Assembly (NCBI RefSeq): GCF_913773995.1
Contig: NZ_CAJYES010000091.1
Span: forward strand, 1 to 32,074
DNA: 32,074 nt
Direction: 5' to 3'
Source: an uncultured Pseudacidovorax sp.
GTDB taxonomy: Bacteria > Pseudomonadota > Gammaproteobacteria > Burkholderiales > Burkholderiaceae_C
In this document: piece after piece, positions 2,812 through 14,736 of the stretch
Layout of the letters: each line of letters begins with the position of its first letter
Position numbering within the stretch: the stretch's first letter is position 1
Notes under the pieces: generated by a model
Told to the model about the DNA's origin: nothing
What the model saw: the letters and a program-made list of their open reading frames with translations, nothing else
The model's database searches: none
Translations under genes and position numbers: made by a program

Positions 2812-4554
2812 TCAGTGCCCCGAGGCGCCGGCCGCGCCCAGCCCCGTCTCCGACCGCACCTGCTGCGCCGGGAAGGCGGCCCGCTCGGCGGCGGCCTGGC
2901 GGCTGCGGTCCATCAGGCTGAACAGCCAGATGCCCGCAAAGCCGATGGCCATGGAGAACAGCGCCGGCGAGGTATAGGGGAAAAGCGCCGAGCCCTTGGG
3001 ATAGCCCAGCGTCGCCTCCCACACCGAGGGCGAGACGATGGTCAGCCCCACCGAGGCCGCCAGGCCCAGCGTGCCGCCGATCACCGCGCCGCGCGTGGTG
3101 CAGTCCTTCCACAGCACGCTCATGAACAGCACCGGGAAGTTGGCCGAGGCCGCGATGGCGAAGGCCAGCGACACCATGAAGGCGATGTTCTGCTTCTCGA
3201 AGGCGATGCCCAGCAGCACCGCGATGATGCCCAGCGCCACCGTGGTGATGCGCGAGACGCGCAGCTCGTCGCGCGGCTCGGCGCGGCCCTGCTTGATCAG
3301 CGTGGCATAGAGGTCGTGCGACACCGCCGAGGCGCCCGACAGCGTCAGGCCGGCCACCACCGCCAGGATGGTGGCGAAGGCCACCGCCGAGATGAAGCCG
3401 TAGAACACGTTGCCGCCCACCGCCTTGGCCACCAGCACGGCCGCCATGTTGGTCGCGCCCGCACCGCCGTGGATCACGCCCGTGGCCACGTTGGCGAACT
3501 CCGGGTTGGTCAGCACCAGCGTGATGGCGCCGAAGCCGATGATGAAGATCAGCAGGTAGAAGTAGCCGATCCACACCGTGGCCCAGCCCACCGACTTGCG
3601 GGCCTCCTTGGCATCCGGCACGGTGAAGAAGCGCATCAGGATGTGCGGCAGCCCGGCCGTGCCGAACATCAGCGCCATGCCGAAGCTGATGGCCGAGATC
3701 GGGTCCTTGACGAAGCCGCCCGGGCCCATGATGGCCAGCCCGATGCTGCGTGCCTCTTCAGGCGACTTGCCGGCATTGGCGGCGATCTGCGTGCGCACCT
3801 CGACCGACCTGGCGAACAGCGCCTCGGGGCTGAAGTGGAAGGCCGCCAGCACCATCACCGCCATGAAGGTCACGCCGGCCAGCAGCATCACGGCCTTGAT
3901 GATCTGCACCCAGGTGGTGGCCGTCATGCCGCCGAAGAGCACGTAGACCATCATCAGCGCGCCCACGATCACCACCGCCACCCAGTAGTCCAGGCCGAAC
4001 AGCAGCTTGATGAGCTGGCCCGCGCCCACCATCTGGGCGATCAGGTAGAAGGCCACCACCACCAGCGTGCCGCTGGCCGCGAAGGCGCGGATGGGGCCGG
4101 GCCGGAAGCGGTAGCCGGCCACGTCGGCAAAGGTGAACTTGCCCAGGTTGCGCAGCCGCTCGGCCATCAGGAAGGTGAGCACCGGCCAGCCCACCAGGAA
4201 GCCGATGGAATAGATCAGCCCGTCATAGCCCGTGGCCATCACGGCGGCCGAGATGCCCAGGAAGGAGGCCGCCGACATGTAGTCGCCCGCGATGGCCAGG
4301 CCATTCTGGAAGCCGGTGATGCCACCGCCCGCGGTGTAGAAGTCTGCCGCCGAGCGCGTGCGCTTGGCCGCCCACTTGGTGATGTAGAGCGTGCCCGCCA
4401 CGAACACCATGAACATGCCGATGGCGATCCAGTTGGTGGGCTGCTTGGCCACCTGGCCGACATCGCCGCCCGCGGCCTGGGCCAGACTGGCCATCATCAG
4501 CAGCGAGGCCAGTGCAAGACGGGCCGCCGTGCTGGAGAAGGATGCGCGCGTCAT
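2812..4554 (-). CDS. actP: cation/acetate symporter (SSS family)
   Basis: This 580-residue protein matches the sodium:solute symporter ActP, which takes up acetate and other short monocarboxylates across the inner membrane. It starts with a cleavable-looking leader ending [11 protein letters not shown] (about 20-30), typical of ActP. Then come helices separated by [21 protein letters not shown] (in part) near 67-87 and [14 protein letters not shown] near 92-105, the classic SSS core motif, and [18 protein letters not shown] in the middle third. About 13 membrane segments can be counted. The ATG at 4554 shares ATGA with the stop of the DUF485 gene, so the two are translationally coupled, as yjcH-actP are in E. 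coli. The open frame continues far upstream through other genes; those extra residues are not real. The adjoining kinase/regulator and the divergent acetyl-CoA synthetase support the acetate assignment. Confidence 0.93.
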
Positions 4555-7890: not shown

Positions 7891-9534
7891 TTGACGCACA
7901 TCAATCCCTACGACCTGGGCCTGGACCGCAACGCGGCCAACTTCGTGGCGCTGACGCCGCTGTCCTTCCTGGCGCGGGCCGCGCATGTGTTTCCGCAGCG
8001 CACCGCGCTCATCTACGGCGAGCGCCGCCAGAGCTGGGCCACGACCTATGAACGCTGCCGCCGCCTGGCCAGCGCCCTCGCGCAGCGCGGCGTGGGCCCC
8101 GGCGACACGGTCGCCTGCATGCTGCCCAACGTGCCCGCCATGTACGAGGCCCACTTCGGCGTGCCGATGACGGGCGCCGTGCTCAACACGCTCAACACCC
8201 GGCTCGACGCGCAGGCCATCGCCTTCATGCTCCAGCATGGCGAGGCCAAGGTGCTGCTCACCGACCGCGAGTACGCCGGCGTGGTGGCCCAGGCCCTGAG
8301 CGCGCTGGGCCCGCACCGGCCGCTGGTGATCGAGGTGGACGACGACACGGCGCCGCCCGGCGCGCGGCTCGGCGAGATCGGCTACGAGGACTTCCTCGCC
8401 GCAGGCGATCCGGCCTTCGACTGGCAGCCACCCTCCGACGAATGGAATGCCATCGCGCTCAACTACACGAGCGGCACCACCGGCAACCCCAAGGGCGTGG
8501 TCACGCACCACCGCGGCGCCTACCTCAATGCCGCGAGCAATGCCCTGGCCTGGAACCTGCCCGAGGGTGCGGTCTACCTGTGGACGCTGCCGATGTTCCA
8601 CTGCAACGGCTGGTGCTTTCCGTGGACCACCGCGCTGATGGCCTGCACCAGCGTGTGCCTGCGGCGGGTCGAGCCGGCCGCGATCTTCGGGCTGATCCGC
8701 GAGCACCGCATCACGCACCTGTGCGGCGCACCCATCGTCTACAGCATGCTCATCGCCGCACCCGCCGCGCTGCGCGAGGGCATTGACCATCCCGTGAAGG
8801 GCCTGGTGGCCGGTGCCGCCCCGCCGGCCGCGGTGATCGAGGGCTGCGAGGCCGCGGGCATCGCCATCACCCATGTCTACGGCCTGACCGAGGTGTACGG
8901 CCCCTCCGCCGTGTGCGCGCAGAAGCCCGAATGGGCGCAGCTGCCGCCGGTCGAGCGCGCCCGCATGAACGGCCGCCAGGGCGTGCCCTATCCCTTGCAG
9001 GAGGCAGTGACGGTTCTGGACCCCGCCACGCTGCAGCCCGTGCCGGCCGACGGCGAGACCGTGGGCGAGATCTTCTTCCGCGGCAATGCGGTGATGAAGG
9101 GCTACCTCAAGAACCCGCGCGCCACCGAGGAAGCCTTTGCCGGCGGCTGGTTCCACACCGGCGACCTGGGCGTGCTGCATCCCGACGGCTACGTGAAGAT
9201 CACCGACCGGAGCAAGGACGTGATCATCTCCGGCGGCGAGAACATCTCGTCCATCGAGGTGGAGGACGCGCTGCACCACCACCCCGCCGTGCTCACCGCC
9301 GCCGTGGTGGCCATGCCCGATGCCAAGTGGGGCGAGGTGCCCTGCGCCTTCGTCGAGCTCAAGCCAGGCGCCACGGTGGACGAGGCCACGCTGCTGGACT
9401 TCTGCCGGCCGCTGCTGGCGCGCTTCAAGATGCCCAAGCGGATCGTCTTCGGCGAGCTGCCCAAGACCTCCACTGGCAAGACCCAGAAGTTCGTGCTGCG
9501 CGAGCGGGTGCACTCCGCCAGCGCCATCGAATGA
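7891..9534 (+). CDS. acyl-CoA synthetase (AMP-forming), medium/short-chain type
   Basis: A 547-residue member of the ANL superfamily, which joins a carboxylic acid to CoA through an acyl-adenylate. The AMP-binding P-loop [11 protein letters not shown] is at 192-202; the A5-type motif [12 protein letters not shown] lies near 330-341, the hinge region with [21 protein letters not shown] near 418-438, the A8 loop [13 protein letters not shown], and the catalytic lysine K530 in [10 protein letters not shown]. The overall style (NRxALxxLTPLSFLxRAA opening, [11 protein letters not shown] helix) resembles the AlkK/medium-chain and plant AAE-type ligases rather than acetyl-CoA synthetase. It starts with TTG and is followed 26 bp later by acsA, almost certainly in one transcript. 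The acid substrate cannot be read from sequence; a short-chain or branched acid would fit the neighbours. Confidence 0.88.
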
Positions 9535-9560
9535 CCCCCTTTTCCTCCATGGAGACGACC

Positions 9561-11528
9561 ATGAGCGACACCGCCGCCCTCTATCCCCCGCCCCTCGTCC
9601 TGGCCGCGAAGGCCCATGTCTCCGGCCGCGCCGCCTACGACCGCCTGGTGGCCGAGGCCGAGGCCGACCCCGAGGGTTACTGGGGCCGCCTGGCCCGCGA
9701 GTATGTGGGCTGGAAGACGCCCTTCACCCGCGTGCTGGATGACAGCCGGGCGCCCTTCTTCGAATGGTTCAACGACGGCACCCTCAACGCCAGCTGGAAC
9801 TGCCTGGAGCGCAACATCGAGCGCGGCCTGGGCGCCAAGACGGCACTGATCTTCGAGGCCGACGACGGTGCCGTCACGCACGTCAGCTACCGCCAGCTGC
9901 TGGTGCGGGTCAACCGCATCGCCAACGGGCTGCGCGCCCTGGGGGTCAAGAAGGGCGACCGCGTCGTCATCTATATGGCCATGTCCATCGACGGCGTGGC
10001 GGCCATGCAGGCCTGCGCGCGCATCGGCGCCATCCACTCGGTGGTGTTCGGCGGCTTTTCGGCCCATGCCCTGCGCGACCGCATCGCCGACACCGGCGCC
10101 TGCGTGGTCATCACGGCCGACCAGCAGGTGCGCGGCGGCAAGCAGCTGCCGCTCAAGGCCATCGTGGACGAGGCGCTGGCCCAGGGCGGCTGCGCCAGCG
10201 TGCGGCATGTGGTGGTGGCCCGGCGCACCGGTGCGGCCGTGCCCTTCCAGGCGCCGCGCGACCTGTGGCTGGACGAGCTGGTCGACGGCCAGAGCGAGCA
10301 TTGCGAGCCCGAATGGGTGGAGGCGGAGCATCCGCTCTTCCTGCTCTACACCTCGGGCTCCACCGGCACGCCCAAGGGCGTGCAGCACGCCACCGGCGGC
10401 TACCTGCTGCATGCGGCCCTGACCTGCCACTGGACCTTCGACATGAAGGCCGACGACATCTTCTGGTGCACCGCCGACATCGGCTGGGTGACGGGCCACA
10501 CCTACATCGCCTACGGGCCGCTGATGCTGGGCGCGACGCAGATCGTGTTCGAGGGCGTGCCGACGTACCCCGATGCGGGCCGCTTCTGGAAGATGATCGA
10601 GGCGCACCGCGCGACGATCTTCTACACGGCGCCGACGGCCATCCGCTCGCTCATCAAGGCGGCCGAGGCCAACGAGGCGGTGCACCCGGCCCGCTACGAT
10701 CTGTCGAGCCTGCGCATCCTGGGTTCGGTGGGCGAGCCGATCAACCCGGCCGCCTGGACCTGGTACCACCAGCATGTCGGCGGCGGGCGCTGCCCCATCG
10801 TCGACACCTTCTGGCAGACGGAGACGGGCGGGCACATGATCACGCCGCTGCCGGGCGCGACGGACCTGGTGCCGGGCTCGTGCACCCTGCCCTTCCCGGG
10901 CATCGCGGCGGCGGTGGTGGACGAGACGGGCAACGATCTGCCCTGGGGGCAGGGCGGCATCCTGGTGGTCAAGCGGCCCTGGCCGTCGATGATCCGCACG
11001 ATCTGGGGCAATCCGGAGCGTTTCCGCAAGGGCTACTTTCCGGAAGAATTCCAGGGCCGCTACTACCTGGCGGGCGATGGTGCGATCCGCGATGCGACGA
11101 CGGGCTACTTCACGATCACGGGCCGCATCGACGACGTGCTGAACGTGTCGGGCCACCGCATGGGCACGATGGAGATCGAGTCGGCCCTGGTGGCCAAGAC
11201 CGATTTGGTGGCCGAGGCCGCGGTGGTGGGGCGCCCGGACGACACCACGGGCGAGGCGATCTGTGCCTTCGTGGTGCTCAAGCGGCCGCGCCCGACGGGC
11301 GAGGAGGCGAAGGCGCTGGCGAACGAGCTGCGCAGCTGGGTGGCCAAGGAGATCGGGCCGATCGCCAAGCCCAAGGACATCCGCTTCGGCGACAACCTGC
11401 CGAAGACGCGCAGCGGCAAGATCATGCGCCGGCTGTTGCGCAGCATCGCCAAGGGTGAGGCGATCACGCAGGACACCTCGACGCTGGAGAACCCGGCGAT
11501 CCTGGAGCAGTTGGCGCAGGCGAACTGA
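9561..11528 (+). CDS. acsA: acetyl-CoA synthetase (AMP-forming)
   Basis: This 655-residue enzyme activates acetate to acetyl-CoA for central metabolism in the cytoplasm. It has the N-terminal ACAS cap ([20 protein letters not shown], about 41-60), the P-loop [11 protein letters not shown] at 263-273, [12 protein letters not shown] and the acetate-pocket motif [15 protein letters not shown], the hinge and [20 protein letters not shown], and the C-terminal [10 protein letters not shown] with K620, the lysine acetylated in Acs enzymes. Length is the usual 650. The start at 9561 is preceded by GGAGAC four bases upstream and matches the family N-terminus; the frame is open further upstream inside the previous gene. 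It closes the divergent half of the acetate module; the repeat region begins directly after its stop and I see no normal terminator. Confidence 0.95.
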
Positions 11529-11544
11529 GGGGGCTGGTCGGGCG

Positions 11545-11574
11545 GGTCGTTCCGGTTGCATCGGTCGCATCGGT
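11545..11574. repeat. degenerate 9-bp units outside the left arm
   Basis: GGTCGTTCC, GGTTGCATC and GGTCGCATC follow one another at 11545-11571 and lead into the 8-bp array. The reverse complement of the array right of the other arm has similar units (such as GGTCGCAAG), so the two flanks look related. Confidence 0.5.
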
Positions 11575-11630
11575 GCTTCGATGCTTCGATGCTTCGGTGC
11601 TTCGGTGCTTCGGTGCTTCGGTGCTTCGGT
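11575..11630. repeat. tandem 8-bp array, GCTTCGRT x7
   Basis: Seven exact-length units: two GCTTCGAT then five GCTTCGGT. The variant switch occurs once, as expected if the array grew by slippage of two founder units. Confidence 0.93.
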
Positions 11631-11631
11631 C

Positions 11632-11676
11632 GCACCAGGCGCACCAGGCGCACCAGGCGCACCAGACGCACCAGGC
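11632..11676. repeat. tandem 9-bp array, GCACCAGGC x5
   Basis: Five units, the fourth being GCACCAGAC. The last unit (11668-11676) is also the outermost 9 bp of the left 183-bp arm. Confidence 0.93.
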
Positions 11677-11850
11677 GTCGGAACGGTAACCCGGCAGAGG
11701 ACGTCGGCATGCGCGCTCCCGGTGCGCGCTCGCGCCGACCTGCTTGCCTCACTACACGGGTGCTCGCTCTCCACCGACGTGCCTGCCGCACTGCACGGCG
11801 CCGCGAATGGCACCTCCGCACGCACACCGCCATCCTCCACCTCGACGCCG
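11668..11850 (+). repeat. left arm of a 183-bp inverted repeat
   Basis: Aligned with the reverse complement of 12205-12387 it shows nine substitutions and no insertion or deletion in 183 positions, by hand count. The part running from CTCACTACACGGG (about 11747) to the CATCCTCC near 11837 is identical over about 91 bp. It contains GTAACCCGG near its outer end (GTTAACCCGG in the other arm). No coding capacity is recognised. Confidence 0.93.
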
Positions 11851-11890
11851 CGCGCGAGTCCTACCCTTTTCAGGTCGCGGGGCCGTGAAG

Positions 11891-11938
11891 CCCTCGAACC
11901 CTCGAGCCCTCGAGCCCTCGAGCCCTCGAGCCCTCGAA
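11891..11938. repeat. tandem 8-bp array, CCCTCGAG x6
   Basis: Six units; the first and last read CCCTCGAA, the four inner ones CCCTCGAG. Confidence 0.93.
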
Positions 11939-11974
11939 TCATGGAGTCATGGAGTCATGGAGTCATGGAGTCAT
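11939..11974. repeat. tandem 8-bp array, TCATGGAG x4.5
   Basis: Four perfect units followed by TCAT, directly joined to the arrays on both sides without any spacer. Confidence 0.93.
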
Positions 11975-12030
11975 GCGGCAATGCGGCAATGCGGCAATGT
12001 GGCAATGTGGCAATGTGGCAATGTGGCAAT
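11975..12030. repeat. tandem 8-bp array, GYGGCAAT x7
   Basis: Three GCGGCAAT units followed by four GTGGCAAT units, then GCGGGCC. As in the first array, a single variant boundary divides the block. Confidence 0.93.
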
Positions 12031-12050
12031 GCGGGCCAGTCAACCCCAGA

Positions 12051-12076
12051 CCGTTCGGGCTGAGCCTGTCGAAGCC
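12051..12076 (+). repeat. REP-like 26-mer, forward copy
   Basis: CCGTTCGGGCTGAGCCTGTC continues GAAGCC. It resembles, from memory, a short sequence scattered through intergenic regions of many proteobacteria (core TGAGCCTGTCGAAG). An inverted copy lies 65 bp further on. Confidence 0.65.
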
Positions 12077-12141
12077 TCGCCCATCAAGGTGGAGCCGAGT
12101 CGGGTGAGGACGGCCCGCCTTTGCGCCGCGCGCCGCTCTGC

Positions 12142-12165
12142 CCTTCGACAGGCTCAGGGCGAACG
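12142..12165 (-). repeat. REP-like element, inverted copy
   Basis: On the minus strand this reads CCGTTCGCCCTGAGCCTGTC then GAAG, matching the copy at 12051-12076 except at two bases (CC for GG after TTCG). Together the two could pair into a stem of about 24 bp in a transcript. Confidence 0.65.
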
Positions 12166-12204
12166 GAGTCAAGACCTGGACGGCTGAACCCGGCAGTTCA
12201 GGTG

Positions 12205-12387
12205 CAGCGTCGAGGCGGAGGATGGCGGTGTGCGTGCGGAGGTGCCATTCGCGGCGCCGTGCAGTGCGGCAGGCACGTCGGTGGAGAGCGAGCACCCGTG
12301 TAGTGAGACAAGCCGGTCAGCGCGAGCGTGCACCGGGAGCGCGCATGCCGACGTCCTCCGCCGGGTTAACGTTCCGACGACTGGTGC
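12205..12387 (-). repeat. right arm of the 183-bp inverted repeat
   Basis: Inverse copy of 11668-11850. The centre between the arms is 354 bp (11851-12204). The arm ends exactly where the flanking period-9 array begins, and the array keeps its 9-bp phase up to that point. Confidence 0.93.
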
Positions 12388-12495
12388 GACTCGTGCCGTC
12401 CTCGCCACTCATGCCACCCTTGTGACCCTTGCGACCCGCGTCATCCACATGATCCGTCCGACCGATGTGACCAGCGCAACCTGCGCAACCCTGAC
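12388..12495. repeat. degenerate period-9 array outside the right arm
   Basis: The 108 bp divide into twelve 9-mers of the form [GAC]A[CT][CT]NNNGC or close to it: GACTCGTGC, CGTCCTCGC, CACTCATGC, CACCCTTGT, GACCCTTGC, GACCCGCGT, CATCCACAT, GATCCGTCC, GACCGATGT, GACCAGCGC, AACCTGCGC, AACCCTGAC. The units have drifted but the register holds throughout. Confidence 0.7.
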
Positions 12496-12523
12496 GCAGG
12501 CACATGGCCGCCCCACGCAAGAC

Positions 12524-13423
12524 TCAGCGCCGCGCCGGCACCACCGCCGCCAGCTGCTCGCGCAACCACCGATGGGCCGCATCCTGCTGGTGCCGCAGAT
12601 GCCACACCATGTACATCGGCAGCGGCGGACAAGCGACCGGCACCGCCACGCTGGCAAATTCGCGCATCAGGCCTTCGCCTAACAACCCAGGCACCGTCGC
12701 CAGCATCGGCGTGCCCCGCAGGAAAGCCGGCAGGCCGGCGAAGCCCGGCACCGTCACCACGAAATGCCGCTCGATGCCGCGCGCCGCCAGCGCCTCGTCC
12801 AGCGCCATGCGCCGCTGCGGCGGGTAGACCACCGTCGCATGGTCCGCGGCCAGCCACTCTCGGCGCGTGGCCGGCGCCTCGCGCACGGCCGGGTCGTAGA
12901 AGACGCGCCATCGGTCCTCGAACAGACGCTTCTGCACGATGTCGCTGCCCTCGGGCGGGCGGGGACTGACCACCAGCTGGCACTGGCCGCTGCGCAGCAT
13001 CTCGGCCGTGGGCACGTCCGAGGGCAGCACGCGCAGCACCAGCCCCGGCGCCTGCGCGCGCAGCCGCGCGGCCAGGGGCACCAGCAACACCTCGCGCTGG
13101 AAATCGTTGGCGGCGATGGTGAGCACGCCGCGCCAGGCCGCGGGATCGAAGTGGGCATGCCGCGCAAAGGCCTGCAATTGCGCCAGCAGCTCGCGCGCCT
13201 GCGGCGCCAGGGCCTGCGCATGGGCCGTCGGCACGATGCCGCGGCCCGACTTGACGAACAACGGGTCACCCGTGATGGCGCGCAGCTTGTCCAGCAGATG
13301 GCTCACCGCCGACTGCGTGACACCCAGGCGCTGTGCAGCACCTGTGATGGAGCCCGTCTCCACCACCGCCACCAGCAGGCGCAGCAGCCGTGCGTCCAGA
13401 TCCGACCAATCGAGATCGCTCAT
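12524..13423 (-). CDS. LysR-family transcriptional regulator
   Basis: A 299-residue LysR-type regulator. The winged helix-turn-helix is at about 8-65 (LRLLVAVVETGSITGAAQRL, then VTQSAVSHLLDKLR and GDPLFVKSGRG), followed by the linker helix and a periplasmic-binding-protein-like effector domain from about 92 (GVLTIAANDFQREVLLVPLA). It is divergent from the dioxygenase genes with 90 bp between, the classic layout of a regulator acting on the neighbouring catabolic operon, so control of ligAB is the likely job; the inducer is unknown. The start at 13423 (MSDLDWSDLD) fits the usual spacing to the helix-turn-helix; alternatives at 13432 and 13459 exist and none has a good Shine-Dalgarno. Its 3' end faces the composite repeat region. 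Confidence 0.88.
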   Translation of the reverse strand: MSDLDWSDLDARLLRLLVAVVETGSITGAAQRLGVTQSAVSHLLDKLRAITGDPLFVKSGRGIVPTAHAQALAPQARELLAQLQAFARHAHFDPAAWRGVLTIAANDFQREVLLVPLAARLRAQAPGLVLRVLPSDVPTAEMLRSGQCQLVVSPRPPEGSDIVQKRLFEDRWRVFYDPAVREAPATRREWLAADHATVVYPPQRRMALDEALAARGIERHFVVTVPGFAGLPAFLRGTPMLATVPGLLGEGLMREFASVAVPVACPPLPMYMVWHLRHQQDAAHRWLREQLAAVVPARR

Positions 13424-13433
13424 GCAATGCATG

Positions 13434-13450
13434 ATGATCCATCGGTTTAT
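13434..13450. promoter_or_regulatory. imperfect dyad between lysR and ligA, possible LysR site
   Basis: ATGATCC-ATC-GGTTTAT pairs at five of seven positions. It sits in the divergent spacer next to a TTGACA (13453-13458) that could be a plus-strand -35 hexamer, though no -10 lies at 16-18 bp from it. Weak evidence. Confidence 0.25.
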
Positions 13451-13513
13451 CTTTGACAACGGCCCGCGAATACTGGTGGCCTTCCTTCACCACGGGATCG
13501 ACGAGGAGACCGC

Positions 13514-13870
13514 ATGACCACCCCCACACCAGCCACGCCCATCGAGGGCACCACCCTGTTCGACGGCGATCAGGCCCGCAAGGGCTATGCGCTCAACAAG
13601 ATGTGCTTCTCCTTCAACGAAGAAGCCAATCGCCAGGCCTTCCTGGCCGACGAGGAGGGCTACATGCGCCGCTACGGCCTCAATGCCGAGCAGGCCGCGG
13701 CCATCCGCGCGCGCAACGTGCTGCAGCTCATTGCTGCGGGCGGCAATGCCTACTACCTGGCCAAGTTCGCGGACATCTTCAAGCTGGACATGCAGGACAT
13801 CGGCGCCCAGCAGACGGGCCTCTCCAAGGACGAATTCAAGGCCCGGCTCGTCGCGGCCAACTTCCAGTAA
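13514..13870 (+). CDS. LigA-type small subunit of an extradiol dioxygenase
   Basis: This 118-residue protein matches the LigA fold, the alpha subunit of protocatechuate 4,5-dioxygenase: RKGYALNKMCFSFNEEANRQ at about 22-41, EEGYMRRYGLNAEQAAAIRARN, and LLAAGGNAYYLAKFADI-like region near 73-90. LigA covers the active site of LigB and shapes the substrate pocket. It is about 20-30 residues shorter than the well-studied LigA and PmdA, mainly at the ends. A strong AGGAGA at 13504-13509 precedes the ATG. The LigB-type partner begins 20 bp downstream. The short length leaves open a substrate other than protocatechuate, for example gallate or another catechol. Confidence 0.85.
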   Translation: MTTPTPATPIEGTTLFDGDQARKGYALNKMCFSFNEEANRQAFLADEEGYMRRYGLNAEQAAAIRARNVLQLIAAGGNAYYLAKFADIFKLDMQDIGAQQTGLSKDEFKARLVAANFQ

Positions 13871-13890
13871 AGCCACAGAGGAGAAAAGCC

Positions 13891-14736
13891 ATGGCCAAGA
13901 TCATCGGCGGCGTCGGCACCTCGCACATTCCCGCCATCGGCAACGCGATCCACAAGGGCCTGCAGGCCGAGCCCTACTGGAAGCCCTTCTTCGACGGCTA
14001 TCCGCCCGTGCACGACTGGCTGGCGACGGCCCGGCCCGACGTGGTGGTCCTGTTCTACAACGACCATGGCCTCAACTTCTTCCTCGACAAGATGCCCACC
14101 TTCGCCGTCGGCGCGGCGTCGCAGTACGCCTCGGCCGACGAGGGCTGGGGCATTCCGGCGCAGCCGCCGGTGGGGGGCGAGCCGGCGCTGTCGTGGCAGC
14201 TGATCAACACGCTCATCGAGCGCGAGTTCGACATCGTCAGCTGCCAGGAGATGCTGGTTGACCATGCCTGCACCCTGCCGCTCAAGCTGCTGTGGCCCAG
14301 CGGCGACTGGCCGGTAACCCTCGTGCCGGTGTGCATCAACACGGTGCAGTTCCCGCTGCCCAAGGCCAGCCGCGTCTATGCGCTGGGCAAGGCCGTCGGC
14401 GAGGCCGTGGCGGCCTGGGGCGAGGACCGGCGCGTGCTCTTCGTCGCCTCGGGCGGGCTGTCGCACCAGCTCGACGGCACGCGCGCCGGCCACATCAACA
14501 AGCGCTTCGACCTGCAGTTCATGGACAGCCTGCTCACCAACCCGGAATGGGCCACGCAGTTCTCGGTGCACGAGATCGTCGAGAAGGCCGGCACCCAGGG
14601 CGTGGAACTGCTCATGTGGCTGGCGATGCGCGCGGCGCTGACGGCGGCGGGCCCGTCGGTGCGCAAGGTGCACGCCAATTACCACCTGCCGATCTCGAAC
14701 ACCGCGACGGCGCTGCTGGCGCTGGAGACGGCCTGA
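13891..14736 (+). CDS. LigB-type catalytic subunit of a class III extradiol dioxygenase
   Basis: This 281-residue protein is the beta subunit, which binds Fe(II) and opens the aromatic ring next to the hydroxyl groups. Ligands line up well with LigB: H12 (GVGTSHIPAIG), H59 (FYNDHGLNFF) and E239 (GTQGVEL); the catalytic histidine is H192 in ASGGLSHQLDG. PmdB/LigB are about 285-300 residues, so length is near normal. The start at 13891 has AGAGGAGA at 13877-13884; the open frame extending back to 13453 overlaps ligA and is not used. No other genes of the 4,5-cleavage route (dehydrogenase, hydrolase, hydratase, aldolase) are in the window, unlike the pmd and lig operons, so protocatechuate 4,5-dioxygenase is the best family name but the substrate is not proven. 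Confidence 0.87.
   Translation: MAKIIGGVGTSHIPAIGNAIHKGLQAEPYWKPFFDGYPPVHDWLATARPDVVVLFYNDHGLNFFLDKMPTFAVGAASQYASADEGWGIPAQPPVGGEPALSWQLINTLIEREFDIVSCQEMLVDHACTLPLKLLWPSGDWPVTLVPVCINTVQFPLPKASRVYALGKAVGEAVAAWGEDRRVLFVASGGLSHQLDGTRAGHINKRFDLQFMDSLLTNPEWATQFSVHEIVEKAGTQGVELLMWLAMRAALTAAGPSVRKVHANYHLPISNTATALLALETA

Follow-up and report, generated by a model that had tools for sequence, protein, structure and literature searches.

The window analyzed here is a stretch of 32,074 nucleotides from an uncultured Pseudacidovorax sp. (contig NZ_CAJYES010000091.1), a genus assigned to the Comamonadaceae in the NCBI taxonomy. It carries a long inverted repeat that sits between the 3' ends of two convergent genes, one of the acsA type and one of the LysR type (Table 1), as an earlier note made from the sequence alone had described. 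The geometry given in that note was reproduced exactly on realignment: the two complementary arms, each of 183 bp (11668-11850 and 12205-12387), differ by nine substitutions with no gaps, share a longest identical run of 91 bp (11748-11838) and enclose a centre of 354 bp. A repeat finder stretches the arms to 193 bp (94%). This inverted repeat is one copy of a family that is absent from Rfam, which points to either an unrecognised structured RNA or mobile DNA. A search of positions 9000 to 14500 of the window against Rfam 15 with E up to 1 gave three sub-gathering hits, none of them on the folded unit described below and one on the repetitive extragenic palindromic (REP)-like sequence in the centre; at 13 other loci the single hit was off the unit.

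Table 1. Features of the inverted repeat and its neighbourhood (positions in the window).
Feature	Positions	Strand	Basis or remark
Left arm	11659..11851	-	folding strand runs from centre to outside
Right arm	12204..12396	+	folding strand runs from centre to outside
Left folded unit, about 149 nt; 24-bp closing stem 11818-11841 with 11693-11716	11693..11841	-	match to covariance model R2, 93.8 bits (unit in training set); stem counts
Right folded unit, about 149 nt; 24-bp closing stem 12214-12237 with 12339-12362	12214..12362	+	match to R2, 101.9 bits (unit in training set); RNA fold z-score
Near-invariant core CTGCACGGCGCCGCGAATGGC, left arm	11791..11811	+	core comparison
Near-invariant core CTGCACGGCGCCGCGAATGGC, right arm	12244..12264	-	core comparison
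REP-like repeat CCGTTCGGGCTGAGCCTGTCGAAG, first half of inverted pair in centre	12051..12074	+	repeat finding; pattern search
REP-like repeat, second half of inverted pair in centre	12143..12166	-	repeat finding; pattern search
8- and 9-bp tandem arrays, outside left folded unit, entering outer end of left arm	11557..11677	.	tandem repeats
Three 8-bp tandem arrays in centre	11889..12034	.	tandem repeats
Acetate--CoA ligase (AcsA), 3' end toward element	9549..11528	+	gene call, protein family match
LysR-type regulator, 3' end toward element	12524..13459	-	gene call, protein family match

Copies of the arms were located by BLAST in a set of 15 genomes, own genome included, that holds Pseudacidovorax and Xenophilus (the genus set). 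The own genome contains 19 arm matches over 12 contigs, and 13 of the 15 genomes contain at least one; none was found in G002 and G003. The only match in G014 is weak (35 bases, E 2.6e-4), and the only one in G011 is close to a contig end. The 21-base core, with one mismatch allowed, occurs in 6 of 299 family genomes, with many copies in four of this genus and one mismatched match in each of the other two. We examined 61 loci of the genus set (60 fetched stretches and the window), 46 of which have two full-length arms; all listed pairs have the + arm before the - arm. The flanking sequences group 12 loci that are common to Pseudacidovorax species, with two to six stretches each, taken from G000, G004, G009, G012 and G013 and, at one locus, from G005; the window locus is present in the other four close genomes. 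Among the matches listed, Xenophilus elements are mostly at loci unlike those of Pseudacidovorax; a single cluster, of 15, includes both, with weak justification. The inverted repeat of the window is then a member of a repeat family with no transposase inside, which bears out the earlier view of a non-autonomous element similar to miniature inverted-repeat transposable elements (MITEs). The same note had allowed for a one-off rearrangement or an assembly artefact in case no other copies existed; copies are found in the own genome and in its relatives.

An artefact of assembly could be suspected because several draft contigs begin or stop inside elements. We regard it as scarcely credible, since orthologous copies occur in separate genomes, pairs lie inside long contigs, and pairs are also present in a genome that forms a single contig of 5.40 Mb (G104). 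The contig ends inside elements were seen in drafts of G009 and G000, and at some of the shared loci the two halves of one locus are on two contigs. Copy numbers in drafts are therefore probably underestimates, and the elements may explain why some draft genomes of related bacteria break at these sites.

What is conserved in this family is the fold of each arm and not a long hairpin between left and right. Each arm folds back on itself, its outer end pairing with its inner end, and differences are paired within the arm. The unit so formed, of about 149 nt, is closed by a stem of 20-24 bp, inside which follow a purine-rich internal loop, a stem of about 5 bp, a UCGCG/CGCGA stem that is nearly invariant, and a variable head; the 91-bp identical block of the window falls within it and includes its near-invariant core. 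Arms are of two kinds in Xenophilus, and most elements there combine one of each; in the five elements measured the two arms differ by about 30%. Across genera, identity between the two units of an element is 57-78% (22-43% difference) in 14 of the 16 elements with both aligned, the exceptions being the window copy (96%) and locus L336 (92%). The fold is kept in each, and the recent inverted duplication that the earlier note had considered is contradicted by this divergence. As to the long hairpin RNA also proposed there, a role as RNA is plausible from the G-U bias given below, but it is not the left-right hairpin that is conserved, since the arms diverge.

The pairs themselves identify the strand that folds. 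On the outward-reading strand of 164 distinct arms (105 from Pseudacidovorax and 29 + 30 from Xenophilus, ten truncated, chimeric or unrelated rows of 174 being excluded), the 24-bp closing stem contains 3128 Watson-Crick pairs, 621 G-U pairs, 4 A-C and 175 other mismatches, and 117 of the 175 fall at stem pairs 22-23, which are unpaired in nearly all Xenophilus arms. Because a G-U on one strand is an A-C on the other, the 621:4 split shows that the outward-reading strand alone folds under constraint. Calculated fold energies are better for the outward strand in 105 of 106 Pseudacidovorax arms (mean -103.5 versus -84.7 kcal/mol). For the right unit of the window, the fold z-scores on the proposed and the other strand are -4.39 and -2.72 with RNA parameters, and -2.69 and -0.63 with DNA parameters. 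This comparison leans towards RNA, and we infer that the molecule that folds is probably RNA. A coding role of the arms was considered, as open reading frames (ORFs) cross them, and was set aside because the fold explains the substitution pattern, a judgment made without a codon test.

To compare units across genera we used 59 of 69 model matches, ten similar ones having been dropped by hand, and aligned them on sequence alone. The consensus structure derived from the same 59 rows has 32 pairs, 24 of them with changes on both sides. In this alignment 98.0% of the cells are paired, versus 83.2% after shuffling; cells with both-side changes number 220 versus 51, and covariation reaches 0.418 versus 0.141. 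None of 500 shuffles attains any of the five measures, and shifting the partner by one to three columns lowers pairing to 29-48%. Within the genus alone, three of the five measures exceed all shuffles; pairs with both-side changes and further pair types are not above the shuffles there, while across genera they are. Fifty units from other genera contain 140 G-U pairs versus 8 A-C and 28 other mismatches, and the proposed strand folds better in 43 of them. In a tree, whose support values were unexamined, units of several genera cluster by kind, a sign that both kinds may be old.

More distant relatives were searched with a covariance model (R1) built from 48 arms of this genus only. R1 matched 28 of 399 family genomes (20 of 141 genera, counting the own), and the best E in each was no higher than 3.6e-5; the other 371 genomes gave no match; in a sample of the order 3 of 399 genomes matched, all three of the same family (the share from other families being only partly shown). 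Seven candidates were scored per genome in both searches, so that both counts are lower bounds. A covarying structure that extends over 20 of the 141 sampled genera without a match in Rfam would be either an unnoticed RNA of gene ends or a mobile element with unfamiliar ends. Searched in depth, 12 of the matched genomes yielded 134 unit matches (at most 34 in one genome), which form 34 pairs less than 1.5 kb apart and leave 66 single matches. All 34 pairs are divergent. They come from 9 of the 12 genomes, the remaining three (G340, G041 and G131) having singles only at the R1 threshold. Since R1 held no information on the pairing of units, the divergent architecture is confirmed independently. 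A second model, with some G104 and G340 units in its training set, found pairs at 14 of 18 G104 loci and 5 of 6 G340 loci, all divergent, and single units at five loci.

The centre between the units is 48-179 bp long in 32 of the 34 distant pairs: 48-53 bp in G104, G114, G073 and G342, 67-116 bp in G291, G111 and G145, and 127-179 bp in 13 of the 14 pairs of G015. The pair of G143 has a centre of 503 bp. The remaining G015 centre, of 1279 bp (L336), holds an ORF of 292 residues (1575-2453) flanked by two units that are 92% identical; its product had no match in Pfam or NCBIfam and a start that looks lipoprotein-like by eye. These lengths bear on the idea that the units are two divergent small-RNA genes, transcribed from the centre and multiplied by duplication. 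Each unit does have a covarying, strand-specific, RNA-like fold directed away from the centre. However, the centres of 48-49 bp in five R1 pairs of G104 are G+C-rich and leave little room for promoters (judged by eye, no promoter scan having been run), and the inspected Pseudacidovorax centres vary widely, many containing REP pairs and tandem arrays. We therefore consider small-RNA genes improbable.

Distances among the Pseudacidovorax arms, with the orientation of each locus set by hand from the flank grouping, average 0.083 between species when one and the same arm of a locus is compared, 0.104 when an arm is compared with the opposite arm of that locus, 0.090 within an element, arm against arm, and 0.1145 for arms of different loci in one genome. 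At a shared locus the G005 copy is at 0.21 from its orthologues and at 0.10 from other G005 arms. Five species have solo arms at one locus; the mutual distance of these arms (0.072) is smaller than that to other arms (0.141), although for one of the five the nearest neighbours lie elsewhere, at different loci. The arms evolve partly in concert. The earlier note had read the 91-bp block as a sign of recent conversion or selection, and its suggestion of conversion is partly borne out by the distances. The somewhat smaller distance between the arms of one element than between different loci would also suit a local inverted duplication, or a cruciform hairpin DNA, kept by conversion from arm to arm, in which a single unit has no function; so would one site in G009, a deletion derivative that retains only the two outer arm ends. 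This explanation is very improbable in view of the arm difference in Xenophilus and the identities of the units across genera, each unit still folding.

Genes next to the elements were called with a codon model at 55 of the 61 genus loci, six at contig ends being excluded. At the 50 loci with both neighbours called, 26 elements lie between convergent and 24 between tandem genes, and none between divergent ones. With orthologues collapsed by hand, the 13 Pseudacidovorax loci comprise 7 convergent and 6 tandem; at one collapsed locus, one of four species disagrees on neighbour orientation. The 18 loci of G104 comprise 12 convergent, 6 tandem and no divergent cases. For the distant loci, 38 of 45 with both neighbours called, the numbers are 21, 15 and 2, the calls in G015 being poor. 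The elements favour gene 3' ends.

This location could reflect usefulness to the host. The distal unit would fold in a read-through transcript and stop the polymerase, or protect the end of the transcript, before it runs antisense into the neighbour, and by its mirror symmetry such a 3'-end element would act in both directions. Location and symmetry are explained just as well by such a two-way barrier or protector, which is the chief competitor of the mobile-element reading weighed below. It agrees with the lack of divergent gene pairs in the genus and in G104 (0 of 50 and 0 of 18), with the RNA-type G-U bias, with the retention of the fold both in solo arms and where orthologous loci are shared, and with the folding strand, which for each neighbour's transcript is that of the distal arm. 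On the other hand, no U-tract follows the units by eye in the inspected copies (no terminator scan was run), no match was found in G002, in G003 or in the 371 family genomes (a lower bound on presence), two of the 38 distant elements do lie between divergent genes, and harmless insertion would give the same bias for 3' ends. On balance we hold this explanation to be possible, though the less probable.

With confidence only slightly above even, we favour the reading that the element is a miniature, non-autonomous, REPIN-like repeat with far larger, strand-specifically folding ends, which spread in trans and is now mostly fixed. Its building block is the single-strand-folding unit of about 150 nt, two of which stand back to back, each folding from the centre to the outside; in the window copy the centre is enlarged by a REP pair and tandem arrays, and the long inverted repeat arises there because both units are of one subtype. 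A trans-acting enzyme would have moved the elements as whole units by their two folded ends. RAYT proteins, thought to act on REPINs, may serve as a model for such spreading, but the ends here are much larger. Most copies would by now be fixed, and selection and gene conversion among the copies would preserve the folds. In favour of mobility, 14 of the 18 copies fetched from G104 align across most of a 453-bp element. The full-length copies have near-constant ends, with CGGCCC...GGGCCG near both ends in most of them, and L315 shares 99.6% identity with L313 and 98.7% with L314 within unrelated flanks. From one subclade to another, the loci that carry the element are mostly different. With its single contig and 14 paired elements of the 18 fetched, G104 would allow movement, transcription and function to be studied directly.

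Several observations weigh against this interpretation. The near-identical copies of G104 could also stem from gene conversion. No target-site duplication was found in 19 G104 and G340 elements (longest shared string 4.42 versus 4.31 in controls), and insertion into palindromes, hinted at by the flanks of L315, was rejected by swapped-flank controls (7.03 versus 6.81). The L315 site in the sister genome G340 still has a partial element, and the sole comparison of a filled and an empty site (L092, G005 versus five species) has ragged borders. Pseudacidovorax loci are common to several species, and no element was seen moving. No transposase accompanies the elements examined, an autonomous relative not having been searched for systematically. 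As for the fold, the calculated energies prefer the proposed strand only weakly in Xenophilus (15 of 29 and 21 of 30 arms), and the cross-genus covariation figures are partly favoured because the rows were picked by a model that rewards pairing; the within-genus G-U bias is free of that favour because the arms were found by BLAST. Solo arms are as intact as paired ones (no broken stem pair in 6 of 8 and 59 of 83, respectively; p = 0.53), so that the pair is not needed for conservation of the fold.

The candidate movers were RAYT-like genes (PF01797), present in 14 of the 15 genomes of the genus set with one match each. The arm core is absent from the 10 of 14 RAYT-like loci scanned (about 3.3 kb each), one of which has one REP-like site, and G003 has the gene and no arm; these findings also weigh against the mobile reading and leave RAYT unsupported as the mover. 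An origin from plasmids or phages was rejected as well, as neither the window arm nor the G104 element matches any. The exact 22-base core was not found in IMG/VR; one viral contig matched a looser core pattern and was taken as a chance match, scoring only 18 bits with R2.

A bolder form of the mobile reading is tentative and, in our view, unlikely. The elements would make up a new class of miniature mobile elements in Comamonadaceae-related bacteria, with ends formed by RNA or single-stranded DNA domains of about 150 nt on the outward strand, and an enzyme that recognises the fold would move them in trans, possibly via an RNA intermediate. As the domains are on the outward-reading strand, a copy of either strand would have one folded domain at its 3' end.

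The element resembles several known repeats. A single REP unit has strand polarity. RIB/RIP of enterobacteria consist of two inverted palindromes around a centre, and MITEs such as Correia/NEMIS and ERIC are small, intergenic and without a transposase, with a predicted RNA fold. RIB/RIP and other enterobacterial 3'-end mosaic repeats differ from the present element in size, sequence and taxon. The element shares these MITE features, described in general terms in PMC2267715, and like MITEs it has terminal inverted repeats, formed by the inverted units; unlike them, it showed no target duplication, and its ends are folded units and not short terminal repeats. REPINs are characterised in PMC3116915 as two inverted palindromic copies with a spacer, dispersed between genes and non-autonomous. 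As far as that characterisation goes, the present element is like them and like BIMEs (bacterial interspersed mosaic elements) in being an intergenic, non-autonomous, inverted doublet of palindromic units around a spacer. REPs are given a length of 20-40 bp in PMC3733652, whereas the present unit, at about 150 nt, is closed by a stem of some 20 bp or more and has a fold like that of an RNA. The element also departs from the REPIN/RAYT system in that no arm lies beside the RAYT-like genes scanned and unit matches do not exceed 34 per deeply searched genome.

Two further candidates come from the literature on these bacteria. BRE (Hot et al. 2011), a mostly intergenic betaproteobacterial repeat listed also for Comamonadaceae, is described in PMC3110155 as about 90 bp long, often tandem and present in Alcaligenaceae and Rhodocyclaceae too, and inverted pairs are not part of the description there; it is set apart from the present element by that description and not by sequence. 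Burkholderiales-1 (Weinberg et al. 2010, PMC2864571), a candidate RNA motif in Burkholderiales that is listed with no Rfam accession, could possibly be the same unit. We claim newness of the unit only as far as Rfam and a limited literature search reach.

True REP-like repeats occur within the centre of the window copy. The pattern CTTCGACARGCTCAG..CGAACGG, with at most two mismatches, has between 39 and 203 matches in 13 genomes of the genus set, 2 in G014 and 1 in G002; G002 is also the sole genome of the 15 without a RAYT-like gene. The tandem arrays at related loci differ from the 8- and 9-bp arrays of the window, and at L048 and L081 the outermost arm bases are repeated in tandem, as if replication slips at the element. 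In the centre of L074 (within 3850-4415), another palindrome, of the CCCTCTCCCC...GGGGAGAGGG type, replaces the REP pair, and a similar sequence is present in L081.
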